Translations under genes and position numbers: made by a program
Source of the DNA: Prorocentrum cordatum
Lineage: Eukaryota; Sar; Dinophyceae; Prorocentrales; Prorocentraceae
Direction of reading: 5' to 3'
Assembly (NCBI GenBank): GCA_963575745.1
Contig: CAUYUJ010017639.1
Span: 1-64,000 of the forward strand
Length of the DNA: 64,000 nt
In this document: positions 6,246-37,865 of the stretch, piece after piece
Position numbering within the stretch: position 1 is the first letter of the stretch
Layout of the letters: each line of letters opens with the position of its first letter
The notes under the pieces: generated by a model
Seen by the model: only the letters and a program-made list of their open reading frames with translations
What the model was told of the DNA's origin: nothing
Databases searched by the model: none

Positions 6246-6532
6246 GACTTTAAACGGAGAAGGTTAAAGGCGAGGTATAAATCGAGCATGTACCGCTGCC
6301 GTGCCTGGCTCAAGCCGGGCCCGGCCTGATATGTGACTGTGCCTCACCGAGGCGCACTACTTGCATTTGAGATCGGAAAACATCCTTTCCATTGACGATG
6401 CCCATCTTACTCTATACTCCAGATCCCATGCTTCGTCTCGCTCTCTTGCTCATGCGATATGAGCCAAAGCCTGGGATATGGCAACGCCTAAGGCGTAACA
6501 CATACCTAAGCTTACCAGCCTGTTTTCGACTT
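6246..6532 (+). repeat. 5' LTR (direct repeat copy 1)
   Basis: This matches 22699-22985 without indels at a constant offset of 16,453 bp. It begins GACTTTAAACGG and ends TTTTCGACTT, so it lacks the usual TG...CA ends, and GACTT stands at both termini of both copies. It contains the TATA-like box, the SL-like sequence and the first ATG of the Gag-like ORF. Gag starting inside the LTR is also the arrangement in yeast Ty1. Confidence 0.9.
6276..6314 (+). promoter_or_regulatory. TATA-like box plus spliced-leader-like sequence in 5' LTR
   Basis: TATAAAT lies at 6276-6282. The 22-mer at 6293-6314 starts CCG, has GCC at positions 6-8 and ends TGGCTCAAG. It resembles the dinoflagellate SL, which has the same start, GCC and final GGCTCAAG, with a few substitutions and one extra base. 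No GT donor follows, so it resembles a mature SL end and not an SL-RNA donor. The same pair occurs in the 3' LTR at 22729-22767. Confidence 0.5.
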
Positions 6533-7705
6533 GGTAGCGGAGCTGGCTACACTCTCGTGTGGCTGGCTCTCGCTCTGATTCCAGTAATCCACGGCACAAC
6601 TTGGTGGACTACTACCACGGTGGAATACCATGTTGCGCCGGCTCTGCGAGGAGCGGAGCCAGTCCGCGATCGAGCTAGCGGGGCAACCCGCGAACTCGAG
6701 ACGCTCTCTCCTACCTCACTGCGCTACTTCACTCCCGACTTCCACCAGATGCCAATCGGCAACTCGATCGAGAACGTGGTCACCCTGCGGGGCTACCCGC
6801 AGCGGGGCCACCTGCATCCCGTGCCGGTCAGGCGCCTCACGGCTACCACGCCAGAGCCTGACAAACCACAGCCTAAACCAATCACCGAAGCCGAAATGCA
6901 TATGCATTGGATCAAGATAACTCTCTTCGGCATTCTATGGGTGATAATGGGATGTGCTGTGGGATACATGCGGCAGGGGATGGACGACACGCGTACTACT
7001 GGCCCTTCATGGGACCCTGCCGGTACTACGCCTTTCCGCGAATACGTTCGCGAAGTACATGCATGGTTAAACGTAACGAGCGGCAATATGACACCGCCAC
7101 AACAAGCTGCAGCACTACAACGAGGCCTTCAAGGTCTAGCTCGTCGTATCGCCATGCAGGCCCCCTCCCAGATCATCAATTATGGTGCAACTGTCAATGG
7201 ACAGCCAACGGATGCAGTAACCTACATACTGTACTTACTGAGCACCAAATTTGAAAATCTGGAAGATGAGCGCCAGCTCAACTCTGGCACGGCCCTTATC
7301 GACTTCCGCGTCGAAAGGGGCGAGCGAATCGACTCGGTATTAGCTCGATTCGAGATGGCCCGTGACGAGGCCAACTCTGTTGGCTTTGTCATCCCCAACT
7401 TTCAGATCCTAACGCTGATTCTCTTCAGAGCGTTAGGCGTTGGCGCGTCACGAGCCCAACACCTGCTTGAGCACTTCAATCATCAGATGCCCCGAACACA
7501 AGCAGACTATGACAGGCTGTTGACCAGGATGAGGAACTACGGACATGTTGCCGAGCGCTCTCCTGGTAACATAGCGGGTATCTTCACAGGGCACCACTCA
7601 CATGCAGGTGTTACGCCACGACTGCGGGGTCACCCGCTGGTCCTGGCGAGCCAAATCCCTGGGCTGACCCAGCCGATATGCCCAACGAGGCCACTGCCCT
7701 TCTAG
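6392..7705 (+). CDS. gag: Gag-like polyprotein, N-terminal part with two hydrophobic segments
   Basis: The first ATG lies inside the 5' LTR, so the first 47 residues are LTR-encoded and the frame reads through the primer binding site, as in Ty1. Hydrophobic stretches at about residues 53-69 and 175-193 look like membrane segments. Between them lie about 105 polar residues. The region 205-415 is helical-looking and resembles a capsid: it includes an REYVREVHAWL segment, a LLSTKFENLEDERQL segment and RGERIDSVLARFEMARDE, typical of UBN2/retrotransposon Gag proteins. From about 7570 the coding sequence appears to move to the next frame: the hairpin codons read RGHP here but AGSPA in frame 1 at 7624. 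The final residues after about 400 are therefore probably out of frame. Gag identity is inferred from position and style, not from a strict motif. Confidence 0.7.
   Translation: MTMPILLYTPDPMLRLALLLMRYEPKPGIWQRLRRNTYLSLPACFRLGSGAGYTLVWLALALIPVIHGTTWWTTTTVEYHVAPALRGAEPVRDRASGATRELETLSPTSLRYFTPDFHQMPIGNSIENVVTLRGYPQRGHLHPVPVRRLTATTPEPDKPQPKPITEAEMHMHWIKITLFGILWVIMGCAVGYMRQGMDDTRTTGPSWDPAGTTPFREYVREVHAWLNVTSGNMTPPQQAAALQRGLQGLARRIAMQAPSQIINYGATVNGQPTDAVTYILYLLSTKFENLEDERQLNSGTALIDFRVERGERIDSVLARFEMARDEANSVGFVIPNFQILTLILFRALGVGASRAQHLLEHFNHQMPRTQADYDRLLTRMRNYGHVAERSPGNIAGIFTGHHSHAGVTPRLRGHPLVLASQIPGLTQPICPTRPLPF
6532..6543 (+). other. Putative primer binding site (initiator Met tRNA type)
   Basis: TGGTAGCGGAGC starts on the last base of the 5' direct repeat. 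Its first eight bases equal the start of the yeast Ty1 primer binding site (TGGTAGCG), which pairs with the CCA end of initiator methionine tRNA. The location directly after the LTR is the expected one. Complementarity to the host tRNA cannot be checked here. Confidence 0.65.
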
Positions 7706-8265
7706 GGCAGACCGGCCAGGCATCGGCAGAGGCAGCTGAGGCGAACGCCTGGTCGAACTACTCGCCAGGCGCCGCCTACACTGCAAGCCCGCCCCCGGGC
7801 ACAACCCTCTGGGGCCAAGCGGAGTCATCCGCTCAATGGTCTCAGCCACCCTCACCGTTTGAATCTGGCACTGACACAGATACTTCATCTGACGATGAGC
7901 ACAATGGAATAGTCTCTGCTGGTAATGACTATCCAGCGGACGACGCTCACCTTTCTGAACAGCAAAGGGCGGAAGCCGCCTTTATGGCTTATCGCAAATC
8001 AAAACGCCGTTGGAGGCGCTTTATGAAGAAACCAGTCAGAAAAGTGAGACGTGCAGTACGCCGACATTTCAAACAATTTGGAAAGGGTCGTGGTAAAGGG
8101 GGTCGCAGACGCCGTATGCATGGTAGGGGTATTACTGCTTTCCTCACGTCCTTAACTGATATAGTCTTTGAGGAAGTTCTTATCGGAGGCAAAGGTCGGG
8201 GTCACAGGCGGACCTCCGGTAAGGGAAAAGGGCGGAGGGGCAACCCTAGGGACGCTTTCTGGTAA
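7570..8265 (+). CDS. Gag continuation, acidic linker and highly basic region
   Basis: This frame (frame 1) is open from 7570 to the TAA at 8263-8265; the first ATG is 7678. It continues Gag after a -1 shift. It holds an AGSPAG hairpin-encoded segment, an acidic stretch (TDTDTSSDDEHNG) and then a strongly basic segment rich in KKPVRK and RRRRMHGRG motifs from about 8005 to 8250. The basic part could bind nucleic acid or act as a nuclear signal, which is inference. It overlaps the zinc-knuckle frame by about 98 bp. It may be a separate protein, a frameshift product or a damaged reading frame. Confidence 0.55.
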   Translation, partial: HSGYLHRAPLTCRCYATTAGSPAGPGEPNPWADPADMPNEATALLGQTGQASAEAAEANAWSNYSPGAAYTASPPPGTTLWGQAESSAQWSQPPSPFESGTDTDTSSDDEHNGIVSAGNDYPADDAHLSEQQRAEAAFMAYRKSKRRWRRFMKKPVRKVRRAVRRHFKQFGKGRGKGGRRRRMHGRGITAFLTSLTDIVFEEVLIGGKGRGHRRTSGKGKGRRGNPRDAFW

Positions 8266-8659
8266 TACTATGAAGTGTCATACATGCGGTAGCACAGAGC
8301 ATTTGCGCGATCAATGCCCGAAGGGGAAAGGAAAGGGATCCGTACACTTGGCTCAAAATTCTTTTATGGACGACATAGATTACATTGACTACGAGTTTTA
8401 CGTCAATCCAGAAGCGGCTCCCGCTGCGGGCTCCTCCACGTATTACGTGATGGCCCGCTATGCTGAAGCAACTGTGGCCCTGGAAGACTACGCAGTGACC
8501 CTCTTCGACGAGTTCCACGGCTGGACGAGGTCGATGAGATTGCGTACAATGCTTGGTTCGGTCTTCCAGCGGGGCCACCCGCCGGTGACGAGGTCTCCGA
8601 AGCCGAGACTGTCCCGGCAACAGAGGAAGAACTCACCGCCGCGCTGGCCCCACAAGTGA
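8168..8659 (+). CDS. Gag zinc knuckle (CCHC) segment
   Basis: In frame 2 the motif C-X2-C-X4-H-X4-C is complete (CHTCGSTEHLRDQC, about 8276-8317) and is followed by a Lys/Gly-rich stretch. This is the nucleocapsid knuckle typical of copia Gag. The meaningful part seems to run from about 8266 to 8520. After that the protein-like sequence moves to frame 1, where LDEVDEIAYNAWFGL and AGPPAG are read, so the end of this frame (to 8659) is probably out of frame. No ATG is needed if it is made as part of Gag. Confidence 0.65.
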   Translation: MRKFLSEAKVGVTGGPPVREKGGGATLGTLSGNTMKCHTCGSTEHLRDQCPKGKGKGSVHLAQNSFMDDIDYIDYEFYVNPEAAPAAGSSTYYVMARYAEATVALEDYAVTLFDEFHGWTRSMRLRTMLGSVFQRGHPPVTRSPKPRLSRQQRKNSPPRWPHK

Positions 8660-8946: not shown

Positions 8947-8996
8947 CGGCGGTGACCGCCGTCGCATGCTAGACACAACCAGCGGGGCCACCCGCT

Positions 8997-9264
8997 TGGT
9001 CTAATGGATGCGTCTTCGAGAAAAAAAGAAAAAAAGAAAGAAAAAAAAAAAAAAAAGAGGCTTAAAAATGGATAGAAAACAAAAAAACAAAAAAAAAAAA
9101 AAAAAAAAAAAAGACACTTAATAAAATAAAAACAAAAAAGATTAAGAAACAAAAAATACAAAAAAAGAAAAAAAAAAAAAAAAAAACAATAAAAAAAAAA
9201 AAAAACAAAACCAAAGAATAAAAAACAAAAAAAAAGAAAAAAAAAAGATAAAAGTAAAAGGGTT
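8997..9264 (+). other. A-rich spacer between Gag and the next ORF
   Basis: About 240 bp consist mostly of A, with scattered G, C and T: runs such as AAAAAAGAAAAAAAAG and AAAACAAAAAAAG. It begins after a hairpin unit at 8982-8995. It ends just before the ATG at 9273. A second A-rich stretch precedes the RING-containing ORF at 12690-12863. Confidence 0.9.
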
Positions 9265-9272
9265 GCGATCAA

Positions 9273-10637
9273 ATGAACATTAACGCCCTCTCGATGGAGC
9301 AAGTTTTAATGACATCGGAATACATTCAGAATCCCGTATCAAAACGAAGCCCGTATCAAAACGTGTTCATGGTCCAGGACAGCTCAGAGGACTCGGAGGA
9401 CATGCGGTACGCCAAGAGGGACAGGCGACCGTCGCCTCCCCGAGACTCAGAGCATGACGATCAAAGGCCAGTGACACGTGGTAGTGCGTCAGCGGGGCCA
9501 GCCCGCGGAAGGAGCCGCTCAGCCCCTAGACGCCCTACGCATGATGAATCGGGCTATCCATACAGCACTGAGCACTCCGTTGGAGTATCTGCTCAGCAGG
9601 TGCCGGATTGGTACATCCAATGGTACCCCGGTTACTCTATGGATACTCTTCGGCACTGGTATTCTAAGGAATACTGTACCAAAAGGGACGAGACTGGCGC
9701 GATAATCCGTACCAAGGGCGGCAAGACCAAGACGCCAGAGGCCTGGGACAAAAGGGCTAAGAAGCAGGAGATCATCACTGACCGCAAAACGTACAGAAAG
9801 CAAGTATGTCAGTGTGAGCCCTTTAAAGGCCACATGCGCAGGTGTCCGATGGACCGCCCCTCCAGGAGCCCTCACTATGGAGAGACCCCGTGGAATTGGT
9901 CTCATGGAGACGACGCGGGTAACGTCCATGATCCGAACAAAGAGGTTCCTGGAGGAGGAAAGCGTATCACAGAGGCCGATCGCGTCCCTATGACCGAAGA
10001 GGTGGCCAACACCGTCAAGGAAAATTGGGCAAAGCTTACCAATGACCATCGCCTCAAGGAATGGAACCGCCGATTCCATAAGGAAGCGGGGTCACCCGCA
10101 GAATCCAGTAAGGAAGCGGGGTCACCTGCAGAATCCAGCAGGGAAGCGGGGCCACCCGCAGAAGCAGCACCAGCCGCTGGATCTGCGGACGAGTGGATAG
10201 ACGTTGTCTCTGCTGCCGGGTCCGCCGCCGGCACTGACCGCACCGAGCTAAATGAAGAGTGGGCGGCGGAAGACGGCTCAGAGAATCCATTCCCTGACGG
10301 AAGCGCCTGCTGGTACTGCAGTTCTTCGGCGCAGAAGTGGTTTTGCACGAGGGTAATCTACCGCCATGAGAATGGCAAGTACAAGCTGGCCATAAAAGGT
10401 ACTGCCGACATCGACCAGATGAGGCAGGTCATCCATGATCATGGCCAGCCAGAAGGCCCTCCTAGAGACCCTCCTGGTCACAACCGGGCAAGGGCAGCAG
10501 ACCACCTCCAAGACCTGAAGCCGACTCCTCGTCTTCACCGACTCCGGCAAAAAGGCACCCGTCCAAGAGCCCCGAAGGCACACAGGGGCGGGCGAAGGCC
10601 AGAGGGATCGCCAAGACGGACGACCCTGAGCCGGTGA
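9273..10637 (+). CDS. Arg/Ser-rich accessory ORF of the LTR element
   Basis: The ATG lies eight bases after the A-rich spacer. The protein opens with an acidic patch, then an RGRSRSAPRRP Arg/Ser-rich stretch, an aromatic block (WYIQWYPGYS) and a small Cys/His cluster (CQCEPFKGHMRRC) that does not fit a standard finger. Three consecutive copies of an EAGSPAESS-type block at about 10086-10160 are hairpin-encoded. A CWYC...C group lies near 10310-10340. From about 10466-10510 the likely coding frame changes by -1 into the Tpt1 ORF, so the last 40-50 residues here, rich in Arg/Pro, are probably out of frame. No known family was recognised. Confidence 0.5.
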   Translation: MNINALSMEQVLMTSEYIQNPVSKRSPYQNVFMVQDSSEDSEDMRYAKRDRRPSPPRDSEHDDQRPVTRGSASAGPARGRSRSAPRRPTHDESGYPYSTEHSVGVSAQQVPDWYIQWYPGYSMDTLRHWYSKEYCTKRDETGAIIRTKGGKTKTPEAWDKRAKKQEIITDRKTYRKQVCQCEPFKGHMRRCPMDRPSRSPHYGETPWNWSHGDDAGNVHDPNKEVPGGGKRITEADRVPMTEEVANTVKENWAKLTNDHRLKEWNRRFHKEAGSPAESSKEAGSPAESSREAGPPAEAAPAAGSADEWIDVVSAAGSAAGTDRTELNEEWAAEDGSENPFPDGSACWYCSSSAQKWFCTRVIYRHENGKYKLAIKGTADIDQMRQVIHDHGQPEGPPRDPPGHNRARAADHLQDLKPTPRLHRLRQKGTRPRAPKAHRGGRRPEGSPRRTTLSR

Positions 10638-12751
10638 ATCCTCCCGGTCTGTCCGTGACGGAGAGGAGGAAGGCTTTTGCTGGACCATCGACCCCGATGC
10701 CGCCGGCGACCCAAGGCGATGTCAAGGACGAAGCTCGCGACAAGCCTAAGGCAGCGTTCCGAGGTGACTGGACTCCAACACTGCATCAGCCACGCCTTGC
10801 ACCACGACCAGGTTCGGCACGAATGAAAGCGCAGCCGAAGCCCGAAGCTGGGATGAGGTCGGTGCGGGCAGAAGCGGCCGCCAAGGCTAAAGAGGACAAG
10901 GGCTCTGCGGGGCCACCCGCTAAAGCGGCGCCAGCCGTAACAGCGGGGACACCCGCAGAAGGCACTCTCTCCAGAGAAGAACGCTTCAGAGTCCTCAAAG
11001 AGTTTGGCGACCAACAGAAACTGACTGATGATGCAGCTGCTGACAAAGGCCGCCCGAACCCTGGCGCGGAGTCATCTGCAGGAGCTGCCTCGACAGCCGC
11101 AGGTTCTGCAGGGCCACCCGTTAAAGCGGCGCCAGCTGCATTAGCGGGGTCACCCGCCAAAGCGCCGCCGGCTGCACTAGCGGGGTCACCCGCAAGCTTG
11201 CAGCCAATAATGTCTGTTCTGAGGGTCATTCCTTTGGAATGCAAGTTGTATTGGCAAGGCATTGTAGACAAAGGCCCGAGGCAGCCCATCAACCCACGAG
11301 TCACTCCAGACGACACGGACCGATATGAGGTCATTAATTGTCCGGTTCGTCGTAATTTCAAGTGCCACAACGACTGGGAGCGCGAACAGCAGAAAGTGGG
11401 AAACATGCTGCGAGACAGGCCGCCACTACGCGCTGCGCAGCATAAAGAAGCACTCCTGAAGGTCATGACACAGACCGGCATGGATCCAACCTTGCCGAGT
11501 AAAGAGCAGATGACCAAGGTGTCGATGTGGTTTTCAACGGCTCTACGCCACAGTCCATATTATAAGGACAAACATAACCGATACTTCGAAAAGGTCAGCA
11601 CTTTTGATCCATACGATGGCTGGGTTGTCGTTGACGATCTGCTGACAAACTGGACTGAAAATGATCAGTATAAGTACTATCGTGAAATGCACGAGGTGCT
11701 GATCAAAGGCAGGCCCCACACGTCATTCGTGTATTGGGTGCTGCTAAACTGCTGTGAGATGATTGACCATCACGGCATGCAGAAGGGCAGGCTCCAGATG
11801 AAGTGCGTTGAGGACAGCATGCTGCTGCCTCCCATGTTTCGACCAAAGGCACGCAGGCCACAGTACTTCATCAGAGCCACGAACGGCCACAGCAGTCCAG
11901 GCATCCACTGTCCCGAGTCGCTCTACAAGCCGATCACAACATGGATGAAAGAACCAGACGACCCAGTATATTTCATCCACGGGACGCAGTGGGAGTATGT
12001 CAAGGACATCCTTGCTAATAGCCTGTCATGCCTCGCACAGGACAACCCGAAGAGGAAGGGGGGGCGCCAATTTGTGCATGGCTGCCCCTACCTCCCGGGC
12101 GACCCGAGGATTCAATCGGGCATCCGTCCTGACTCGGAGGTGCTCATATTCTGCAGCATCAACAAGATGCTGTCCAGTGGCTTCTCTCTATGGAGATCAG
12201 CAAATGACATAGTCATGACACGGGGCCACGATGGACGTATACCGCCCGATCATATTCTCCAGATAGTGAGCATCGCGAAGTATCGGGTCGGCGAAGCCTG
12301 GACCAATCCGCTGTTTTATGACAAGACGCGGAGGCGGGGCCAACCCGCGGACAGGATTCGCACTGATGACTACCTGCCACTTAAAATGTGTGACAGAACT
12401 GTGGCGGTAATGGAAGATCATGCCATGTACCTCAAGGGCTGGGCTAAGACGGACGGTCGCCCATTCAATTTGGTCATGACTGAGCAAGATGTTGCTCCAC
12501 GACCGTACGACACACAGACAGTCCTCATGATGAATGCCCAGGAGGACGAGGTCATGCCTGAGGCGGGGCCACCCGCAGGAGCGGGGACACCCGCGGTAGG
12601 CACCTCGGACGGTTCATGGCAGCAGGTAGTCACACCGGTGGCGACGGTAGCATCTCCTTGGAGGCCGGACCAGCAGTCCTGGGTCCAAGCTCTCAACACA
12701 AAACAAATAAACACAAAAACACAAACAACAAAAACAATCAAGGACAAGTAA
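10634..12751 (+). CDS. Tpt1/KptA-like RNA 2'-phosphotransferase domain protein
   Basis: Residues 1-190 are Ala/Pro/Gly-rich linkers with hairpin-encoded AGPPA/AGSPA blocks. Residues about 297-550 match the Tpt1/KptA fold motif by motif: ALRHSP (R305, H306), DGWVVVDDLL (substrate-lobe helix), FIRATNGHS (R414), YFIHGT (H449), FVHG (482), SGIRPDSEVLI (R498) and SANDIVMTRG (N524). The Arg-His-Arg-Arg tetrad known to be essential in Tpt1 enzymes is therefore kept. Tpt1 moves an internal RNA 2'-phosphate to NAD+, giving ADP-ribose 1'',2''-cyclic phosphate; relatives can ADP-ribosylate RNA ends. The 10634 start is a GTG, and frame 2 is open from 10466, so the domain is probably translated with the upstream ORF through a -1 shift. 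The end is Lys/Thr/Gln-rich from the A-rich spacer. Confidence 0.8.
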   Translation: MNPPGLSVTERRKAFAGPSTPMPPATQGDVKDEARDKPKAAFRGDWTPTLHQPRLAPRPGSARMKAQPKPEAGMRSVRAEAAAKAKEDKGSAGPPAKAAPAVTAGTPAEGTLSREERFRVLKEFGDQQKLTDDAAADKGRPNPGAESSAGAASTAAGSAGPPVKAAPAALAGSPAKAPPAALAGSPASLQPIMSVLRVIPLECKLYWQGIVDKGPRQPINPRVTPDDTDRYEVINCPVRRNFKCHNDWEREQQKVGNMLRDRPPLRAAQHKEALLKVMTQTGMDPTLPSKEQMTKVSMWFSTALRHSPYYKDKHNRYFEKVSTFDPYDGWVVVDDLLTNWTENDQYKYYREMHEVLIKGRPHTSFVYWVLLNCCEMIDHHGMQKGRLQMKCVEDSMLLPPMFRPKARRPQYFIRATNGHSSPGIHCPESLYKPITTWMKEPDDPVYFIHGTQWEYVKDILANSLSCLAQDNPKRKGGRQFVHGCPYLPGDPRIQSGIRPDSEVLIFCSINKMLSSGFSLWRSANDIVMTRGHDGRIPPDHILQIVSIAKYRVGEAWTNPLFYDKTRRRGQPADRIRTDDYLPLKMCDRTVAVMEDHAMYLKGWAKTDGRPFNLVMTEQDVAPRPYDTQTVLMMNAQEDEVMPEAGPPAGAGTPAVGTSDGSWQQVVTPVATVASPWRPDQQSWVQALNTKQINTKTQTTKTIKDK

Positions 12752-12863
12752 GCAATAAAAACAAAATATAAAACAAATAGAACAAACAACAAGCAAAGAA
12801 ACAACAAAACTAGACACACAACACAAACAAGCAAACAGACCAGCACCACAACAACAAAGCCAA
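12690..12863 (+). other. A-rich spacer before the RING ORF
   Basis: A- and C-rich DNA (AACAAACAACAAG style) with little G or T. It covers the last 20 codons and stop of the Tpt1 ORF and the open leader of the next frame. That frame is open from 12759 but has no ATG until 13047. Confidence 0.85.
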
Positions 12864-15131
12864 TTGACATCAGCCGACGTTTCTGGACTGACCGATCAGC
12901 TATACCGTGCTGACCCGTGGGCGGTGCATGCAGGTATCCAAGATGCACAGCAGAGGAACCTGCGCCCTCCTGCGGGGCCACCAGGCGTCCTAGGACCACA
13001 ACCACAACGCCCTCCACAGCAAGCTGGAGTTGCGAGGTTTGCTCCTATGGGCGGCTCAGATGGTGGCTCGCCGTTTCGGACACCGCCGTCTGAAACGAGC
13101 GAGAACAGCCTGTGGCAACGACTCCAGGCGATTCGCGGAAATCCGGCGCTCGCAGCAGCACTCCAGGCGACCACTCCCTTTGGCACTCCGAGGGGTAGTG
13201 AAGGAGGAGTGGCTGCGGGGACACCCTCCGAGCGAACGCCTGCGGAGTCACTCGCACATGCGGGGCCACCCGCTGACGGACAGCAAGGTTCAGACTACGA
13301 ACGTCGGGCAGCCAACTTGAGAGCACAGGCTACCTTTTTGCAGCAACAAGCTGATAGAGTGCCCAGCCTGTTGCGGAACCGCAACATAGATGTTACGAAT
13401 CATGGCGACTTTCGGCCTCTCTGGAGCTGGACTTCTGAAGATGCTCCAAATGCTGATCCCACGAATCCATATCGACAGGTGTTTATTCAAGGAATAGCAT
13501 CACACCCAATATATGGATGGGACAATCATGGACCAGCAGAGGCACAGGCCATGGACGCGCCGATGTACCCGGAGTACTACGCGCAGATGAATAACACTCC
13601 TATGATTGCGGGGCCACCTGCGAACGAATACACTCGGAATCTGGCCAATGAGATGTTTCGTTTGCAGTATACACGAGCAGTCGATGCGCAGTCTATGCCG
13701 CACTACGCCTACATGCCTACGCCGACGGACCCCGAGACCGTAGTTCAGCCAGCTGGTCTCGCGGTGCCAGCCGCTCTGGGCAGCATGCCAGACTATATTC
13801 GCGACGTGCACAACACGCAGCAAGCGATACTGGCATCTAGGCAGCAGGCTCGGGACAACGCTAGGCTGCGCCAACAGCGCGCGATCCAGAGAAGGATTGA
13901 GCGTGACAACCAAGCGGGGACACCCGCAGGCGCGGGGCCACCCGCTGAACAGACAGATAGACCGCCACCACCGACGCCATATCGGGAGGGCGAAACTACC
14001 TTCGAGCGTCAGGCTCGGACTCGCCCCGACGTGCCTACTCCAGTCATTTCAGACTACAATTTCACACAGTGCCCAATCTGTATGGACCCCTACGAGATGG
14101 GCACCACGGTGTGGAGACTGGCGTGCGGGCACTTCTTCCACGATATATGCTGGGATCGTGTTGCACAGCAGCACGTCCGCAATCAGCGGCCAGGTGCGCC
14201 AAACGAGGCACCCTGCGCTGTATGCCGTGGGCCGGGCATAATCACAGCACATTTTCCGCATGCTGGACAGCGCGACGCTGAGTCGGAACAGGCGCGCCAG
14301 CAGGAAAGATACGTGGTGGATGCTCGGGAACTGCGTCGGCTGCGGGAAGCAGTGGAGGCACTAGAGGCTCGAGCCGCCTCGGCGGAGCCATCCGCACGTG
14401 CCCCAGCTGCACAGACACACCCCTGGCCAGCGCCAGAGCAAGGCATCCAGATGCCGATCCTGTCTACGCTTCGAGCACAGGGGCCCCCAGCAGCGGGGCC
14501 ACCCGCCGAAGCGACTCCTGCCGCCAAAGCGGGGTCACCCGCAAATGGACCTCCGAATCCGGGATTTCTGAGGACAATGGAGGCCAATATTAGGCGGAGT
14601 GGCAGGAGCGGAGGCGGATCCAGAACCTCACGTGTAGAGAGCCCGGTAAGCGCTAGAAGCCGGGCCAGTGCTGAAAGCGCGGAGGCAGCCCAATTCCACA
14701 ATACCTTCATGATCAACACGGAAGGGCTGACCTACACACGTGACGTCACGGATGCGCTTCCGCCAGGAGGTGAGTGGACCTCCACACTCTCTGCGAATTA
14801 TTGGGTTCTTGAACAGGAACCAATTACCGTGGAGGAGCGCCGCCAATATGAGCAAATATGGTGCACCGAGCTAACAATGAGCCAGTGGGTGCTGGAACAA
14901 CGCCTACTGAAAGGCACGCTCGGTTCACAAATTACGTACCATACTGATGACCATGGTACGATGGCTCTGGCGGCGCGGACAGGGACATTCTTCCCCGACG
15001 AAGACGGAATGCCCTGCATATCGTTCATGCTAGACATTGGCTCCAACGTGAACATCATCGGAGCTAATACAGCACGAACCTTCCAGGAGGTATGGCCAGG
15101 TACAATCACAGACCGGCCATATGCACACTGA
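12864..15131 (+). CDS. RING-H2 finger protein fused to aspartic protease N-terminal half
   Basis: The frame is open from 12759; the 12864 codon is TTG and the first ATG is at 13047, so the start is uncertain. Residue numbers use 12864 as codon 1. A complete RING-H2 (C3H2C3) finger spans C403-X2-C406-X14-C421-X-H423-X2-H426-X2-C429-X21-C451-X2-C454, the zinc pattern of E3 ubiquitin ligases. A Glu/Arg-rich coiled-coil-like stretch follows (about 475-515). Near the end, FMLDIGSNVNIIG (D724, G726, S727) fits the retropepsin D-x-G-S active site of copia-type elements. The protease is cut off: after about 15080-15110 its continuation is in frame 2. Hairpin-encoded AGPPA/AGTPA blocks punctuate the linkers. 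E3 activity is inferred from the finger alone. Confidence 0.75.
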   Translation: MTSADVSGLTDQLYRADPWAVHAGIQDAQQRNLRPPAGPPGVLGPQPQRPPQQAGVARFAPMGGSDGGSPFRTPPSETSENSLWQRLQAIRGNPALAAALQATTPFGTPRGSEGGVAAGTPSERTPAESLAHAGPPADGQQGSDYERRAANLRAQATFLQQQADRVPSLLRNRNIDVTNHGDFRPLWSWTSEDAPNADPTNPYRQVFIQGIASHPIYGWDNHGPAEAQAMDAPMYPEYYAQMNNTPMIAGPPANEYTRNLANEMFRLQYTRAVDAQSMPHYAYMPTPTDPETVVQPAGLAVPAALGSMPDYIRDVHNTQQAILASRQQARDNARLRQQRAIQRRIERDNQAGTPAGAGPPAEQTDRPPPPTPYREGETTFERQARTRPDVPTPVISDYNFTQCPICMDPYEMGTTVWRLACGHFFHDICWDRVAQQHVRNQRPGAPNEAPCAVCRGPGIITAHFPHAGQRDAESEQARQQERYVVDARELRRLREAVEALEARAASAEPSARAPAAQTHPWPAPEQGIQMPILSTLRAQGPPAAGPPAEATPAAKAGSPANGPPNPGFLRTMEANIRRSGRSGGGSRTSRVESPVSARSRASAESAEAAQFHNTFMINTEGLTYTRDVTDALPPGGEWTSTLSANYWVLEQEPITVEERRQYEQIWCTELTMSQWVLEQRLLKGTLGSQITYHTDDHGTMALAARTGTFFPDEDGMPCISFMLDIGSNVNIIGANTARTFQEVWPGTITDRPYAH

Positions 15132-15997
15132 GCAAAACCCTCTACATCAATGGTGTAGGTGAGGGTGCTGCGATCTGTCGGAAAATGGGCAACTTCAAGA
15201 TCGGGGTGCAATACGCCAATGAGGCAAGCCCCCGCATCGAGGAGTATGCTTCCAACATCGCAGAGGGCTCAGGTGCAAACCTCCCAGCCATCTGGGGCCT
15301 GGGCGCCATGGAAGCACGTGACACAATCATCGTGCTGAAGCCAGGCTTCCAGAAGGTTATCTTCCCCAGCGGAGATTATACTCTTAAGCTGGGGAAGGGC
15401 GCCAAGGTCCTGAGGGCGAAGAAAACCCCCTCAGGACATCTAGCCATTCCATGCGGGTTGTATGACGGGGCTAAAAGCCAGACGGTCACGAACACCTTTA
15501 CAATCCGCAGTAGTCGTGATGGCTACACCGAGACGGAGAACGACGAGGACTCCGTCAATGCGGGGTCACCCGCTGGGGTTAGTGCGGGGCCACCCGCCGA
15601 GACCACAGCGGGGCAACCCGCAATGGGACAGTCCCTGACCGTTACGACTGATGCTTACATTGTCGAGCCGTATCTCGACAAGCAGCTCCTGGAAGACACG
15701 ACCCGTGCGATCGTGGACAGGACGCTGAACAGCTGGTGGGAAGGCCAACAGTGTCCTGAAGGGACCTGGCCACACATGAAGGATGCCCTGAAGTCTAAGA
15801 TATTTTGGGCAGTCCAGGAGGCGGTGAATAAGTGGACGCCTGAGAACCAAGCGGGGTCACCCGCGACACCGCCACCACCACCAAGCTGCACGGGCGGAGG
15901 TTCGTCGGACTCTGCGGGGCCAACCCGCGTGGAGACTGTGAGCGTAGCCGCACCAGTGACTCCTGCGGAGCCATCCGCTAACAGCATGCCCCTCTGA
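15092..15997 (+). CDS. Aspartic protease C-terminal half and linker
   Basis: This frame (frame 2) overlaps the previous one by 40 bp and supplies what the protease lacks. It has a TLYINGVGEGA strand, a LPAIWGLGAMEARD motif equivalent to the ILG flap-partner region of retropepsins, and a TPSGHLAIPC segment seen in dinoflagellate copia proteases. It then becomes an Ala/Gly/Pro linker with hairpin blocks (AGSPAG, AGPPAE, AGQPAM). A -1 shift near 15.1 kb would join it to the D-x-G-S half. No own ATG is required; the first in-frame ATG is at 15092. It ends in TGA at 15995-15997. Confidence 0.65.
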   Translation: MARYNHRPAICTLSKTLYINGVGEGAAICRKMGNFKIGVQYANEASPRIEEYASNIAEGSGANLPAIWGLGAMEARDTIIVLKPGFQKVIFPSGDYTLKLGKGAKVLRAKKTPSGHLAIPCGLYDGAKSQTVTNTFTIRSSRDGYTETENDEDSVNAGSPAGVSAGPPAETTAGQPAMGQSLTVTTDAYIVEPYLDKQLLEDTTRAIVDRTLNSWWEGQQCPEGTWPHMKDALKSKIFWAVQEAVNKWTPENQAGSPATPPPPPSCTGGGSSDSAGPTRVETVSVAAPVTPAEPSANSMPL

Positions 15998-16198
15998 CGG
16001 GGGCAGGCGGGCGCGCCGGCGGCGCTCGCCTGCGAAGAGAAGCCGAATACCGGCCTCCTCGCGACATACGTTGGCCGCGCTGAGGCCCGAGAAGAAAAAT
16101 ATCATTCAAAATGCCTCGTCATCGAAGATATTCGCACAGCTTGCGCCGAACTCCGAACCCGTGGATATATATGCGACCGGATTACCCATAATGAGGTA
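15998..16198 (+). other. Spacer before pol
   Basis: A 201-bp gap between the linker ORF and the pol ATG. The first half is GC-rich with a fold-back around GCGCGCCGGCGGCGC. The second half is mixed. No A-rich tract is present, unlike the two upstream spacers. Read in another frame this could join the flanking ORFs only through further shifts. Confidence 0.5.
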
Positions 16199-19100
16199 AT
16201 GACTTCAACTGGAACACAGTATTTGGGAAATTTGTTGGCAGGAGACTACAATATGTTGTGGGTGGCCACACCCTCTGATTGGTACGTTCGTACTCCAGGA
16301 AAGAGGGCGGGACCACATTATCAACGTATACAAAATCTCCTGATCAAAGCGCGTGCTCTGAGAATGCAGATTGTTATCCTGGGGCCACCCGGGTATTTCT
16401 GGAAACAGGGTCCGATCAAAGATGTTATCGAAGATTTGAAGCTAAGCGTTATACGAATCAGACTCTGTCATTTCGGTATTAAGTTTGACCGATCCAGTAA
16501 ACATCCCAGTGGTTCTTATATACAAGTTGCTACATCTTGTCCTCATATACCGATAAACTTATGGAAATGTACTTGTGGATCACACAAGGAGCATGATTTG
16601 GATTGGTATGGCCAAGATCAGCAACGTGCCGAGTTTCGGTATAAAACTTTGGCTATTATTATTGCACGCTTCCTTGATCAACTCGATAAAGCCAACATGA
16701 TCAGGAATGAGCGGAGTGCGGTACACCTCAGTGTGTGTACACGCGTTGACAAAAAGGTCAGACACTACGTTCAATGTCCACAGAAGGGCCCTCAATGGGA
16801 CCATGTGGTTCGTAGGGTCACGACCGACCTGGACACGAACAAGATCGTTCAAGACATTAGAATCCAGGATCAGCCAACTGGGTACAATTATGTAGCTCCA
16901 TTACCTGATGGGGTTACAAACATCAGTACTCGGCTTTACTGGGAGCCTCCGGCTCCAGTTCTTCATGGCAATGGTGAGTCGCGAAGGCCACGCCCAAAGC
17001 GTGTGACGATCGTCGATGACGATCGATCTCCTCCCCCTTCGATTGAGCGTTGCCAAACGCGACCCACCAACAACCTTCCTGAAATTCCGCCATTCCCTGA
17101 TTTTACAGCGGATTCCTCCGCAGCGGATCTCTCCGCGGAAACTGCGTTGCCCACTGATGCCAGGATAAAACAGAAAGAAAAGCAGAAAGCTGACAAAGAA
17201 GCCGGCATCAAACCGAAGAAAGTCCCGAAGAAAGTGGAAGACGGTAACGACGACTGTGGAGAGGACCTCAAAGGGCTTGACTGCTCCACATATTTCAACG
17301 ACGTTCCTCTTGACGACTCGGACTCGGACAGCGAATCAGAGGACATCTTCATGATGTTACCGGCGGGGCAACCCGCTGACTCACATGCCGATATCTTCTC
17401 GATAGTCCAGTCGTTATGCTACGGCAGAAACAATCAGGTGGACATGCTTGAATTATGTGGGGGCAAGGGTGGTATATCCATATTAGCCTTCAAGAGGGGA
17501 CTCTCGTCAGGCGGGAACCTTGACAAGATATCTATGGTTGACCTTGGAAATTCGGAAGTACAAAGAGCAGTCCTCCACTACCTCAAGACTTGCTTTGTCA
17601 AGATCACGATTCTGCAGCCAAGTTGCAGAACTACTGGACTCCCTTCCTACTTCAACGCACAGGTCAATCATGATACGTGGCTTAAACACCACAAAGAGGA
17701 CCTGCCTCACATCACGTTCTGTGGAACAGTTGCTCTATTGCAAGACGACCTAAGACGTTTCTTTCTCAGGGAACAACCAATGGGCACGTGGGTGGATGAG
17801 ATCCAACCATGGAAAGACCTGGCACAACGCAAGGTCACTTGCCAAACAATCATTGATCAGTGCACGACTGGTCTCAAAGATTCATTTGGACAATACATTC
17901 GCAAGCCAACACAGATAATGGCAAATAAAGAAGAGTTGTTGGCACCTTTCAGAGGCAAGCGTTGTCCAGGAAATCATGTGCACGCCAATGCTTGTAACAA
18001 AGAGCTAGCAAGGGCGGCACAGTATACCTACAGAATGCAGTCACTGATCGTTGATGCGGTGCAAATCGCCAAAGACCTGTTTGCTTACGGTCGCGATCCA
18101 TTCGCGAATCGTGAACGCAGCTATGCGTTCGTAACAAACAGTGCTGGCTACGACTTGGACGACCCAACAATCCGGAGACACCCAAACGGAGAAATCTGGC
18201 GACCACCACCTGGCGGTCTTGGGTGCCCTGGCTGTGTGGACAACAACTACAAGCAATCACCAAAGCACAGCAGGGATCCGAAGATGTGTCGGTGGTATGA
18301 TGTTGAACCGTATTACTGGGACTGTCCAAGCTGTAAGAAGGAATATCAGAAGAGCAATCCTCACCACACCAAGATATCTGGCCAATGCAGATTCGCCGAA
18401 AAATGGAAGCTGCCAGATAACTTTGGCCAGCCGCGCCCGGCGGGGCAAGCCGCTCCTGCGGCGCCAGCCGCGGAAGCGGCTCCAGCCGCAGAAGCGGCGC
18501 CAGCCGCAAAAGCGGCGCCGGCCGCGAGAGCGCGCATACGCGCGCCTAGGCCGCCACGGCCTGGTGAGGGCGACCCAACCGCAGGCGCCAGCAGCCATGA
18601 CATCACCAGAGCTGACGGGGCTACTGGTGGCAACAGTGGTGCTGGCAGTTCTGACGATCACCGTAGACTGCCACAAGTTGCAGCAAGGCGCGGACGCATG
18701 GAGGGAGGAGATCCTCCACCACCGCCGCAGCCTCAAGCAGAGCCGAGGCCAAGGCCAAGGCTCCCTGATTGGACTCGCTTCGACGTTCAGCTCAGCCTCC
18801 AAAACCTGCGCAGCTTCGACCCAGCTGTAGTGCAGCGAGAACTCCGCAAACTCCACCTGAGATGGTTTCATGCCAAGGAGCCAAAAATGCGGATGATTCT
18901 AACCAAGGTTGGTCTGGGTGAAACCCGTTTGAGTCTGATCAAAGGCATTTGTGACTCGTGTAGAGAATGTCGAGCCTGGGACAAACCAGGCAACACGGTG
19001 ATGCCTTCTGTGTCACTGCCAGGACGTTTCAACGAGGAAGTCGAATGTGATCTCTTCTTTTACAAACAGGAACATATTGTTTTTCACATCATCGACCGTT

Positions 19101-22100
19101 GTATTCGCTGGGCAGCTGGCACAGAGATTCCTGATAAAGCTATGCATACTGTTCTCGATGCCTATCATACGACTTGGATGCAGCATGGCCCTGCTAAAAT
19201 CTTATACTCCGATGGGGAAGGAGCACTGAATAATGATACAGCAAAGGCCATCCTTAAGGCTAAGGGAACAGAGCTTCGTATTCGAGCGCGTGGCCAACAC
19301 GCCACAACTATCGAAGCTAGGAACGGCATCCTGCGACACCTCCTACACGTGATGGGAGAAGAATTGAATAGATTAAATATCCCTCTCAATTTCACTCGTC
19401 TCTTACATGAAGCCTTGTTTGCCAGCAACGCATTTACCTTCTATAATGAAGTGTCTCCGTACAATGCGCTGTATGGTAGACAGCCAGCTATGCTTCCTGA
19501 TTTCCCTGTCTTGGATCATGATCAGCCCACTGAATCATCAGATCACTCAAGGGAAGAAACAATCAGGAGGGTTAGTCTGGAGGCAATCACGCAGGCCACT
19601 GCGGTTGCCAAGACGAACAGGGCTCTCCGTACAAAGACTACTGCTACGGGTGAATTTCACTATAAAGAGGGAGATCTCGTGGACTATCATCGCCCGACCA
19701 CCACGAAAGACGACTGGGGTGGATGGAGTGGTCCATACCCGGTCATCCGCAACGAACCTGACCGAGGCCAGGTCATCGTGAAGGTCGGCAATCGCGAAGT
19801 ACGAGTACAGTATCCTGACACACGACACACACTGTACATCGAAGCACTTATGGTCCGCGAGATAGGATCGGACAATACGGCCCTTCGAACAGTATTGGCC
19901 TTTATTGCCGGTCTGCCAGCGGGGAAACCCGCCATGACTTTCGGATATCTACCAACGAAACAGGGTCGGCTGCAGATGACTGCTGCGAGCCGACTTTCAC
20001 CTAAGGTGCACTTGGCTCTTCAGTACCTCATACGCAACTACTTTCGTATTGAAAACGTTGTTGCTGTACGACTCGCCAAGAGCCTGACGAAGCTGCCTGC
20101 CGCACCCTATGCAGACAGCTGTACACTAGTGCACTATGATAACGATGTGACCCCTGGGTTTCATTACTATGAAGCTGATGGCACTGCCTTGAACATCTAT
20201 GACATCACAGGATCCACACACTCACGCATCATCCAGTGTCTTAAATCCAGGAAGCCTTCTGCTGGGTTTGACCAAGACCTCACTAAGTTTGAGGAACTCG
20301 CTGACGGTCCACCACCGAGCGAATCACCTCCAGCAGCTGCTCCTGAGGAGCCTCCTACGGACAACGATGGTCGACTCCCGACCATCATAGAGGAGACAGA
20401 AGAAGATCTGGATGCTTTTGTCTTGAAGTCGTGGTATGCTGAACTGATGGATGACAGAACACTCCTTGAAGCTGACACAGAGGAAGTCATGCATACAGTT
20501 CCTACATACATGACAGACACACAGTGTGTGTTAGTCTCTACGACCTGTGAAGATGTGCAAGGCCACTTGCCGGAGCGGGGTCACCCGCCAGGATACGACA
20601 TGGACACTTCTTACTACGTTCCTTTATGCTCCACGGATCCGGATAGCAAATATGATCTGGACTCCGATGAGCACGGGAAGTACATCGAGCTCTGCTTCAC
20701 TGCAGACATGTCCAAAGTCGTCCTGTCCGAGCAGCAACACCGACTGTTGGATGACAGCAGCGTCACAACTATGCGAGTATACGTTAGTGCTGCCTCCAAA
20801 CGTGCCGTGGTCGTCAAGGAAGACGATCTACTCACGAAGGCCGACATCCAAGCAAATCCGGTCAAAGTTTCCAAAGCCCTCTACACAGAACTGAAGACGT
20901 GGCTTGACAACAAATGCTTCCAGATGACTGACTTAAGCAAGGCGTCTAACATCATGACGTCACGCTACGTATACAAATGGAAGTTTGTCAAGAACGAAAA
21001 GGGCGAAATGGAAAGGACGATCCGGTTACGCTTGGTACTCCGTGGCTTCATGGACCTCGAAGCCTTTGATGTCGAAACCTTCTCTGGCACGGCAAGGAGG
21101 TCAAGCCAGAGACTGCTCGCAAGTTCTGCTGCATGCAACAAAGCTTGGATTATCGCTTCCCTGGACATCAACATGGCTTTCTTGAAGGGACTGACCTATG
21201 GCGAGCTCGCCGCGGCAACGGGCGAGAAAGAACGTGTGGTGTGTTTCACACTACCACCTGGGTCAGCAGCTGTCCTTCGCACACTGCCAGGCTTTGAGTC
21301 ATATGACGAATCAAAGCATTGTCTCCGGTGTCTGAAACCGGGGACGGGCACGAAGGATGCTCCCAGGGCATTCTCGCTGAAACTCAGGTCCATCACTAGG
21401 AGCTTTGGGCTACAGCCTACTTCATACGACGAAGAATTCGAGATGAGCCCAAACCTCTTGACAGCCAAGCACGTTGATGACATCAATATGACTGGGAAGG
21501 AAGAGGCTATCGACAAGTATGTCAAGTGTGTTGAAGATACGTTTGGGAAGTGCAAACTGAACAAGCACACATACACGAACTGTGCTGTTCGGTACCACAA
21601 GACCGATGATGGGAGCGTCACTCTCGACCAGGACGAATACATCAAACAGCTTCGTCCTATCACACATCCAGAACTCACAGGAGCTGATCCTGAAAGCAAG
21701 GCGACGAAGACAATTTCTGATATGTTCGTCAGTCTTCGTGGCGCTCTAGCCTATGCGTTGATCACGCAGGTATGGCTAATGGTCTATGTTGTCTCACTAC
21801 AACGTATCCAAGAACCGACAAACATCCAGGTACGACGACTAAACGCGGTTACCAGAAAATTGCAGGCAGGTCCGAAGAAGATCGTGTATCATGCTATGAC
21901 TCCAACAGGAGAAGTCGACCTGCATAGCGATTCTGGCTATCGTCGTCTCAACGGAGATGAAGACGACGAAGTCAAAGGCTACGGTATCCGCGGGGCTAAC
22001 CTGCTGAGGCGTGGCCACACGCAAGCGGGGAAACCCGTCGTGCACCTGGTGGACGCATACTGCAAGTCTCATCGACTGCAAGTGCGTTCGAGCTACTCTG

Positions 22101-22597
22101 CGGAAACACTGGCAGCAGCCCACAACTTGGAAGACTGCTACCCGACCATTGTAACGCTCCACGAGCTACACTCGGGACCATTGACCCCCACACAGTTGAA
22201 GAACATATTGGAAATGGGTGGTCTATGTATCAAAGTCACTCTGACTATTGATGCCGAGTCTGTCTTCAAATCTTTGTCTAGCAAGGATCTGAAGAAGCCC
22301 ACAGAGTGTACTCTGCTTGGGCACATCAGCTGGATTCGCCAGATGATGGAACGTGGAATCGTGGAAAGCGTCCAATGGTGTGACACGCGGGATATGACTG
22401 CCGATGGTCATACCAAAGGTAGCATTGACCGCGCGTTGCTCCTACAAGTAATGGCCGGCCAGCAATCCTTCAAGCACGAGCTGAAGAAACATACGCCGTA
22501 TAGGGCGGGCAGGTCGTCTCAGGACGGCCCTGCCTCCCGAGCCAGCGGGGAAACCCGCGGGCGGGTGCGCTTTAGCAGCGAGGAAACTCGCCGGTAG
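16199..22597 (+). CDS. pol: Copia Pol polyprotein: methyltransferase-like, integrase, RT, RNase H
   Basis: A 2132-codon ORF with ATG at 16199. Residues 1-140 have the dinoflagellate copia pattern with ILGPPGYFW and RLCHFGIKF. Residues about 405-550 resemble a decayed C5-cytosine methyltransferase: DMLELCGGKGG (415-425, SAM-loop-like), PSC (C476, PPC-like) and REQPMG (525, ENV-like). Integrase: H886, H891, C918, C921 zinc site, then D951, D1005 and E1039 (33 residues between the last two). RT: D1656 in ASLDINMAF and HVDD (D1760, D1761). RNase H: D1911, E1969, D2018 and D2069 in MTADGHTK. All catalytic residues of the three core enzymes are present and the frame is uninterrupted, unlike upstream. 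A block of APAAEAAPAAE repeats near 18430-18530 is hairpin-derived. Confidence 0.92.
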   Translation: MTSTGTQYLGNLLAGDYNMLWVATPSDWYVRTPGKRAGPHYQRIQNLLIKARALRMQIVILGPPGYFWKQGPIKDVIEDLKLSVIRIRLCHFGIKFDRSSKHPSGSYIQVATSCPHIPINLWKCTCGSHKEHDLDWYGQDQQRAEFRYKTLAIIIARFLDQLDKANMIRNERSAVHLSVCTRVDKKVRHYVQCPQKGPQWDHVVRRVTTDLDTNKIVQDIRIQDQPTGYNYVAPLPDGVTNISTRLYWEPPAPVLHGNGESRRPRPKRVTIVDDDRSPPPSIERCQTRPTNNLPEIPPFPDFTADSSAADLSAETALPTDARIKQKEKQKADKEAGIKPKKVPKKVEDGNDDCGEDLKGLDCSTYFNDVPLDDSDSDSESEDIFMMLPAGQPADSHADIFSIVQSLCYGRNNQVDMLELCGGKGGISILAFKRGLSSGGNLDKISMVDLGNSEVQRAVLHYLKTCFVKITILQPSCRTTGLPSYFNAQVNHDTWLKHHKEDLPHITFCGTVALLQDDLRRFFLREQPMGTWVDEIQPWKDLAQRKVTCQTIIDQCTTGLKDSFGQYIRKPTQIMANKEELLAPFRGKRCPGNHVHANACNKELARAAQYTYRMQSLIVDAVQIAKDLFAYGRDPFANRERSYAFVTNSAGYDLDDPTIRRHPNGEIWRPPPGGLGCPGCVDNNYKQSPKHSRDPKMCRWYDVEPYYWDCPSCKKEYQKSNPHHTKISGQCRFAEKWKLPDNFGQPRPAGQAAPAAPAAEAAPAAEAAPAAKAAPAARARIRAPRPPRPGEGDPTAGASSHDITRADGATGGNSGAGSSDDHRRLPQVAARRGRMEGGDPPPPPQPQAEPRPRPRLPDWTRFDVQLSLQNLRSFDPAVVQRELRKLHLRWFHAKEPKMRMILTKVGLGETRLSLIKGICDSCRECRAWDKPGNTVMPSVSLPGRFNEEVECDLFFYKQEHIVFHIIDRCIRWAAGTEIPDKAMHTVLDAYHTTWMQHGPAKILYSDGEGALNNDTAKAILKAKGTELRIRARGQHATTIEARNGILRHLLHVMGEELNRLNIPLNFTRLLHEALFASNAFTFYNEVSPYNALYGRQPAMLPDFPVLDHDQPTESSDHSREETIRRVSLEAITQATAVAKTNRALRTKTTATGEFHYKEGDLVDYHRPTTTKDDWGGWSGPYPVIRNEPDRGQVIVKVGNREVRVQYPDTRHTLYIEALMVREIGSDNTALRTVLAFIAGLPAGKPAMTFGYLPTKQGRLQMTAASRLSPKVHLALQYLIRNYFRIENVVAVRLAKSLTKLPAAPYADSCTLVHYDNDVTPGFHYYEADGTALNIYDITGSTHSRIIQCLKSRKPSAGFDQDLTKFEELADGPPPSESPPAAAPEEPPTDNDGRLPTIIEETEEDLDAFVLKSWYAELMDDRTLLEADTEEVMHTVPTYMTDTQCVLVSTTCEDVQGHLPERGHPPGYDMDTSYYVPLCSTDPDSKYDLDSDEHGKYIELCFTADMSKVVLSEQQHRLLDDSSVTTMRVYVSAASKRAVVVKEDDLLTKADIQANPVKVSKALYTELKTWLDNKCFQMTDLSKASNIMTSRYVYKWKFVKNEKGEMERTIRLRLVLRGFMDLEAFDVETFSGTARRSSQRLLASSAACNKAWIIASLDINMAFLKGLTYGELAAATGEKERVVCFTLPPGSAAVLRTLPGFESYDESKHCLRCLKPGTGTKDAPRAFSLKLRSITRSFGLQPTSYDEEFEMSPNLLTAKHVDDINMTGKEEAIDKYVKCVEDTFGKCKLNKHTYTNCAVRYHKTDDGSVTLDQDEYIKQLRPITHPELTGADPESKATKTISDMFVSLRGALAYALITQVWLMVYVVSLQRIQEPTNIQVRRLNAVTRKLQAGPKKIVYHAMTPTGEVDLHSDSGYRRLNGDEDDEVKGYGIRGANLLRRGHTQAGKPVVHLVDAYCKSHRLQVRSSYSAETLAAAHNLEDCYPTIVTLHELHSGPLTPTQLKNILEMGGLCIKVTLTIDAESVFKSLSSKDLKKPTECTLLGHISWIRQMMERGIVESVQWCDTRDMTADGHTKGSIDRALLLQVMAGQQSFKHELKKHTPYRAGRSSQDGPASRASGETRGRVRFSSEETRR

Positions 22598-22698: not shown

Positions 22699-22985
22699 GA
22701 CTTTAAACGGAGAAGGTTAAAGGCGAGGTATAAATCGAGCATGTACCGCTGCCGTGCCTGGCTCAAGCCGGGCCCGGCCTGATATGTGACTGTGCCTCAC
22801 TGAGGCGCACTACTTGCATCTGAGATCGGAAAACATCCTTTCCATTGACGATGCCCATCTTACTCTTTACTCCAGATCCCATGCTTCGTCTCGCTCTCTT
22901 GCTCATGCGATATGAGCCAAAGCCTGGGATATGGGAGCGCCTAAGGCGGACTACATACCTAAGCTTACCAGCCTGTTTTCGACTT
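22699..22985 (+). repeat. 3' LTR (direct repeat copy 2)
   Basis: Second copy of the 287-bp repeat. The bases before it (about 22680-22698) are pyrimidine-rich, CT with few purines, instead of the purine-rich tract expected upstream of a 3' LTR on this strand. Immediately 3' the sequence enters a repeat unit starting CGCATGGCGG, which belongs to the array family of 29.0-30.2 kb. Confidence 0.9.
22729..22767 (+). promoter_or_regulatory. TATA-like box plus spliced-leader-like sequence in 3' LTR
   Basis: Identical copy of the 6276-6314 module (TATAAAT at 22729, SL-like 22746-22767). From this position it could drive transcription into the downstream repeats. Confidence 0.45.
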
Positions 22986-37805: not shown

Positions 37806-37865
37806 CTATCCTGTCAGAACGCAAGTCCTGGTTCCGGGTGCTCCTCGAGCCCGAGCCAGGCAACG

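Follow-up and report, generated by a model that had tools for sequence, protein, structure and literature searches.

The locus raises the question whether a retrotransposon of the dinoflagellate Prorocentrum cordatum carries an RNA-processing enzyme of its own and, if so, what the element might gain from it. In the window, by which we mean the whole stretch of 64,000 nucleotides analysed here, an earlier note had recognised a Tpt1/KptA RNA 2'-phosphotransferase domain inside a copia element. In the following, family A denotes the element family of the window copy and family B a second family from the same assembly.

The Tpt1/KptA domain and the element around it

The five ordered motifs on which the earlier reading was based were all found in a single open reading frame:

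10466-12751, + strand: ORF of 761 amino acids holding the Tpt1/KptA domain, part of ORF1 (broken in the window copy)
11516-12226, + strand: Tpt1/KptA (PTS_2-RNA) domain
11543-11557, + strand: LRHSP motif, in the frame of ORF 10466-12751, as are the four motifs below
11546-11551, + strand: Arg and His of the tetrad (LRH)
11870-11893, + strand: IRATNGHS motif
11873-11875, + strand: third tetrad residue, the Arg of IRATNGHS
11978-11992, + strand: HGTQW motif
11978-11986, + strand: HGT motif, contact to the NAD ribose
12065-12067, + strand: fourth tetrad Arg (GGRQFVH), equivalent to human R150; residue 478 in the numbering of the earlier note
12116-12139, + strand: SGIRPDSE motif
12125-12127, + strand: NAD-phosphate Arg (SGIR), equivalent to CthTpt1 R139 and RslTpt1 R137; R498 of the earlier note, Asp in family B
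12197-12220, + strand: SANDIVMT motif

The profile and fold comparisons that had been proposed for this frame both speak for a genuine family member. PF01885 matches residues 351-587 of the ORF with 59 bits (E 7.9e-16; Pfam cut-off 26), the best PDB sequence matches are human Trpt1 (E 9.1e-12) and mouse Trpt1 (E 9.5e-11), and the domain matches the Tpt1 fold with its RNA lobe and NAD lobe, a fold match that was also obtained for family B. The catalytic assignment needed one correction. R305, H306, R414 and R498 had been named as the tetrad, and the first three are indeed tetrad residues; R498, however, aligns with RslTpt1 R137 and is a NAD-phosphate contact. In CthTpt1 the tetrad consists of Arg18, His19, Arg68 and Arg121, and the NAD phosphates are held by Arg121, Arg139 and Arg140 (PMC6333775); the human tetrad is R40, H41, R86 and R150 (PMC6582358). 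Counted along the human chain, R150 proves to be the Arg in QGRTHIHL, and the window has GGRQFVH at the aligned position. The tetrad is thus complete as had been claimed, with a different fourth Arg, and the Arg-His-Arg-Arg set, HGT and the NAD-phosphate Arg are all present. Two positions ahead of the third tetrad residue, a Lys is replaced by Phe in family A; this Lys is not essential (PMC6333775). These matches support the assignment as a Tpt1/KptA domain with its active-site residues in place.

That the domain belongs to a copia element is borne out by its position inside a pair of LTRs, with an ORF for a Copia-type reverse transcriptase further downstream:

6246-6532, + strand: 5' LTR, direct repeat of 22699-22985 (97% identical, 8 differences in 287)
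6503-7585, + strand: Gag-like region within ORF 6371-7705, 54% identity over 368 amino acids with the start of family B ORF1
6532-6543, + strand: primer-binding site, pairing with the CCA-bearing 3' end of tRNA-Met
8276-8317, + strand: CCHC zinc knuckle, CHTCGSTEHLRDQC, from ORF 8165-8659; aligns with the zf-CCHC of a family B copy
14067-14228, + strand: RING finger, PF13639 with E 3e-07, above the cut-off, in family B as well
15010-15475, + strand: aspartic-protease-like region, frame broken in the window copy; motif FMLDIGSNVNIIG read by eye, 43% identity to family B over 120 amino acids
15995-15997, + strand: TGA separating ORF1 from ORF2, both in the same reading frame; the same layout in two family B copies (L032, L034)
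15998-22597, + strand: ORF2, 2199 amino acids, integrase-like, reverse transcriptase and RNase-H-like (integrase and RNase H by eye only)
20909-21691, + strand: Copia-type reverse transcriptase (RVT_2), ORF2 residues 1638-1898, E 1.7e-10, 41.4 bits against a cut-off of 31.6
22699-22985, + strand: 3' LTR, direct repeat of 6246-6532

The LTR pair gives a length of about 16.7 kb; no target-site duplication was recognised flanking it. From 5' to 3' the parts are the primer-binding site, Gag-like region, CCHC knuckle, Tpt1 ORF, RING, protease-like region, TGA and ORF2. Motifs read by eye follow the order protease, integrase, reverse transcriptase, RNase H, and of these four the reverse transcriptase has a Pfam match; the Pfam scan gave no noteworthy match for the Gag-like region and none for the protease-like region, and the zf-CCHC of family B scores 18.7 bits, just below the cut-off of 20.8. 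Of the features by which Ty1/Copia elements are recognised, an LTR pair, a tRNA primer-binding site and RVT_2 are present.

In the window copy, ORF1 is interrupted several times and contains low-complexity insertions at about 8960-9260 and 12690-12860, whereas many other copies have open frames of 3043-3131 amino acids that run through the Tpt1 domain, and a few apparent frames are longer. Both insertions are A-rich or purine-rich, and the latter is missing from the matches of other copies, whose first aligned query residue is 30 or 33.

Retention, selection and origin of the domain

The assembly to which the window belongs (4.13 Gb) was searched with the window domain, and 121 full-length family A matches were obtained (the window and 120 others at 93-98% identity), of which four have an internal stop. 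They are the matches scored out of 4602 candidates. A search with the downstream region scored 117 of 22402; both candidate counts are loose and do not represent copy numbers. From these 117 we took 12 copies for their absence from the list of 121, and all 12 carry the Tpt1 domain, eight of them open through it and four frameshifted. The motifs, read in three frames, are retained in nearly all of 32 family A copies (LRH 32, RATNGHS 30, HGT 31, GRQFVH 31, SGIR 31).

Family B came from an assembly search for Tpt1-like sequences in which 35 of 150 scored rows were retrieved (the first 30, L067-L070, and C19443 as L033/L034). Its domain scores 87.9 bits with PF01885, and in three frames of 23 copies CRH is retained in 23, RASQGHS in 23, HGT in 22 and GRSHIH in 21. 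Family B has Asp in place of the Arg139 equivalent: 22 of its 23 copies read SGWD (SGWDPDS in L010, for instance), and since this replacement is shared by so many copies, it appears to be fixed and not a sign of decay. The domain is therefore not a chance insertion in one copy: it is kept in at least 121 family A matches and in a second element family, and the copies picked by their neighbouring region likewise rule out a single-copy event.

Substitution patterns point in the same direction. For family A, dN/dS was calculated from 21 copies (the window and 20 selected from the list of 121) and for family B from the 23 element rows among the first 30 search rows, with codons containing a stop, gap or N excluded. 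In family A, the values are 0.194 for Tpt1, 0.364 for the upstream linker, 0.524 for a short N-terminal stretch and 0.215 downstream, and in family B 0.195 for Tpt1, 0.293 and 0.396 upstream, and 0.187 and 0.114 downstream, both rankings being biased to intact domains. Constraint on Tpt1 therefore exceeds that on the upstream linkers, but does not exceed that on the downstream parts. A less biased comparison of the window with eight copies picked by the neighbouring region gave 0.24-0.28 for Tpt1. Among changes of the family A domain present in at least three copies, 11 are replacements and 22 silent, against 31 and 29 among private changes, with 3.7 times as many replacement as silent sites. 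The Tpt1 feature is family-wide and under selection.

The domain sits at the same place in both families, although the identity of Tpt1 between A and B is only 26%; it is 30% for RING, 43% for the protease-like region and 75% for the reverse transcriptase. With a profile built from A, B and host-like Tpt1 sequences, 301 of 3110 candidate proteins reached E 1e-3, and 120 of the 301 were listed. Two metagenome proteins, P0009 and P0013, are about 50% identical to the family A domain. P0009 matches PF01885 with E 1.7e-13, keeps the tetrad and HGT over the part it covers, and its likeness continues past the domain into the linker, as far as SDGSW. In P0013, which seems decayed, HGT has been lost.

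In a tree of 59 rows, a 98/85 branch separates the 11 element rows, which have long stems, from the rest, including five host-like sequences of the assembly (L001-L005), and family A groups with P0009 and P0013 (100/99); the tree includes 43 of the 120 listed relatives, has long branches and contains one host row (L003) with a stop read as X. Ahead of DGW and ahead of the fourth tetrad Arg, A and B both have longer stretches than the aligned host-like sequences. All this would fit one old capture before A and B split, with some doubt left by the long branches. A recent capture from present host Tpt1 genes is not favoured, given the 98/85 branch between element rows and L001-L005.

The assembly contains several Tpt1-like sequences outside elements (L001-L007), with L005 and L006 forming a near-identical pair on a long branch. 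Four P. cordatum gene models (P0001-P0004) consist of pieces of the N-lobe of the element Tpt1 joined to unrelated sequence, and P0001 is named Protein-tyrosine-phosphatase. They are either exonised element or mis-annotation.

What the domain may do

One role suggested earlier was the trimming of a 2'-phosphate from a spliced tRNA primer. The 15-mer that begins at 6532 pairs in its first 12 bases with the 3' end of tRNA-Met genes of the assembly plus the CCA that is added to the tRNA, and these genes are 73 nt long and without an intron. From the A1-T72 pair and the T loop, we take the primer to be the initiator tRNA. A tRNA pattern search gave six matches (controls one and three), four of them on one contig, and of the four loci retrieved ARAGORN called two as tRNA-Met, one as tRNA-Ile and one as nothing. 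A longer exact tRNA pattern had no match, because the tRNA-Met genes agree with the element over 12 and not 15 bases. The 15-mer is identical in the family B copy L031, its sole holder among 70 loci, most of which end short of that place. Since the primer-binding site matches an intronless tRNA-Met, a primer with a splice-junction phosphate is unlikely, and the spliced-primer role in its simple form is disfavoured.

What stands is an old, high-copy and giant (about 16.7 kb) lineage of Copia order with Tpt1/KptA in the Gag-side polyprotein, between the CCHC knuckle and RING and upstream of the protease-like region. This suggests that the element benefits from repair or modification of RNA. The likeliest job, which we propose tentatively from the sequence, would be the upkeep of the long RNA template. 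The Tpt1 domain would be produced together with Gag, packaged into the particle alongside the genomic RNA, and act there on RNA phosphates at the expense of NAD+. It would remove the 2'-phosphates that arise when broken RNA is rejoined or cyclic ends are opened, and so let the reverse transcriptase read through a long template. We favour template repair, since very long elements would then have a reason to retain the domain. The argument for it is one of parallels: RNA viruses above 17.5 kb show a sharp increase of NAD-ADP-ribose genes, and KptA is embedded in the polyproteins of two RNA viruses (PMC9503650). A search of this alga for the fungal/plant-type tRNA ligase domain PF08302 gave no match, and the controls likewise gave none.

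For family B, the chemistry or substrate may have shifted along with the change of the NAD-phosphate Arg to Asp, for example to leaving ADP-ribosylated RNA. Since Ala at R137 of RslTpt1 is severely harmful (PMC6333775) and the equivalent residue is lost, family B may not be a normal 2'-phosphotransferase. With still more reserve, we consider that the lineage as a whole might depend on RNA repair or RNA ADP-ribosylation that it carries out itself at the expense of NAD, with a Gag-borne Tpt1 that maintains or marks the 16-kb RNA genome in the particle and with family B having turned to RNA ADP-ribosylation.

The main rival to template upkeep, unlikely in our view, is an ADP-ribosyltransferase of RNA or cDNA ends, which would shield or mark the ends by placing ADP-ribose onto 5'-phosphates, with no 2'-phosphate removed. 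Human TRPT1 and the KptA of S. coelicolor use this tetrad to ADP-ribosylate RNA that carries a 5'-phosphate (PMC6582358), and family B has kept the tetrad but lost the Arg139 equivalent. RslTpt1 R137A accumulates ADP-ribosylated RNA, but is inactive at low NAD (PMC6333775), so that loss of this Arg need not favour ADP-ribosylation; moreover, family A retains it.

It is less probable that host RNA is the target and that the enzyme counters an RNA-cutting or RNA-marking defence or restores host-cut tRNAs, as proposed for the RNA-repair genes of phages, which carry KptA and RNA ligases for tRNA repair (PMC9503650). The low identity of Tpt1 between the families, compared with the reverse transcriptase, is as for a conflict gene, but RING and the protease-like region diverge nearly as much, Tpt1 is under purifying selection within each family, and no RNA ligase domain was seen in the Pfam scans of the element ORFs.

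About as improbable is a non-catalytic domain that now serves as a structural or RNA-binding part of Gag. Its location in the Gag-side polyprotein and the loss of one NAD-phosphate contact in family B would agree with this, but tetrad and HGT are retained in most copies of both families and in P0009, for the part covered. A chance insertion or chimera in the window copy, to which the broken ORF1 with its low-complexity insertions might have pointed, has a negligible probability against the many copies, the neighbour-picked copies, the tree and the metagenome relatives.

Known systems and further features of the element

The element domain shares profile, fold, Arg-His-Arg-Arg tetrad and HGT with cellular Tpt1/KptA/TRPT1 (PF01885) and differs from it by being embedded in a retrotransposon Gag-side polyprotein, by the extra length ahead of DGW and ahead of the fourth tetrad Arg that A and B share against the aligned host-like sequences, and by the missing Arg139 equivalent in family B. 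The nearest parallels in arrangement are the Beihai picorna-like virus and the Botrylloides leachii nidovirus, which likewise have KptA in the polyprotein of an RNA-genome element; they are, however, positive-strand RNA viruses and not retroelements, and are likened here by description, not by sequence (PMC9503650). Giant LTR elements with a captured RNA-modifying enzyme are also known from orchids, where 25-kb elements carry the m6A demethylase AlkB, active in vitro, but these are Gypsy elements with a separate ORF and another chemistry; in the survey of 121 angiosperms, all 15 unusual domains were in Gypsy and not in Copia elements (PMC9289625). DNA methyltransferases of LINE and DIRS elements in Symbiodinium and of Gypsy elements in charophytes are further captured enzymes, in dinoflagellates kept in many retroelement copies, but they act on DNA and belong to other element classes, and the Symbiodinium Copia elements described there lack the DNMT domain (PMC5890265). 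Bdelloid rotifer LTR elements have captured an exonuclease and an esterase, one of them thought to act on RNA or DNA 3' ends, but in a separate ORF3 and unrelated to Tpt1 (PMC5408684).

An LTR element with a captured enzyme is therefore already known. What is new, within the reach of our searches, is that the enzyme is Tpt1 and that it sits Gag-side in an element of Copia order: in agreement with the earlier note, which knew of no such copia element, there was no report of Tpt1 in a retrotransposon among the literature matches listed, with subscription journals and preprints outside the coverage. Tpt1 enzymes occur widely, including where their natural substrate is not known (PMC6333775), and a mobile element that retains one under selection couples it to what becomes of a single RNA, in which 2'-phosphates or ADP-ribose adducts would be measurable. 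Such an element would suggest that long retrotransposons are limited by RNA damage or RNA marks, would carry over to the Copia order what is known of AlkB from Gypsy elements and of KptA from RNA viruses, and may bear on how such elements became so numerous in this dinoflagellate genome. Dependence of the lineage on its own NAD-driven chemistry, if true, would connect NAD-ADP-ribose chemistry with the replication of retroelements.

Some further features of the element and the window deserve mention. In both families, the RING finger separates Tpt1 from the protease-like region (L031 ORF1 residues 2305-2359 in family B); it is perhaps a ubiquitin ligase. GC-rich hairpins were seen behind the TGA between ORF1 and ORF2 in the window (15995-16064), in L032 (8794-8863, - strand) and in L034 (about 1093-1182); the folding z-score is -1.61 for the window, equalled by 13 of 200 shuffles, and -3.15 for L032, equalled by 1 of 200. 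Read-through of this stop is a possible way to make Pol. The first third of ORF2 (15998-18200) contains a stretch, DMLELCGG..QPSCRTTG, which gave no Pfam match and which to us is reminiscent of a methyltransferase-like fold. Apart from this element, the window holds a separate LINE-like retroelement piece at 37806-40598, in which Exo_endo_phos is just below its cut-off and RVT_1 scores 29.9 against 29.6 bits.
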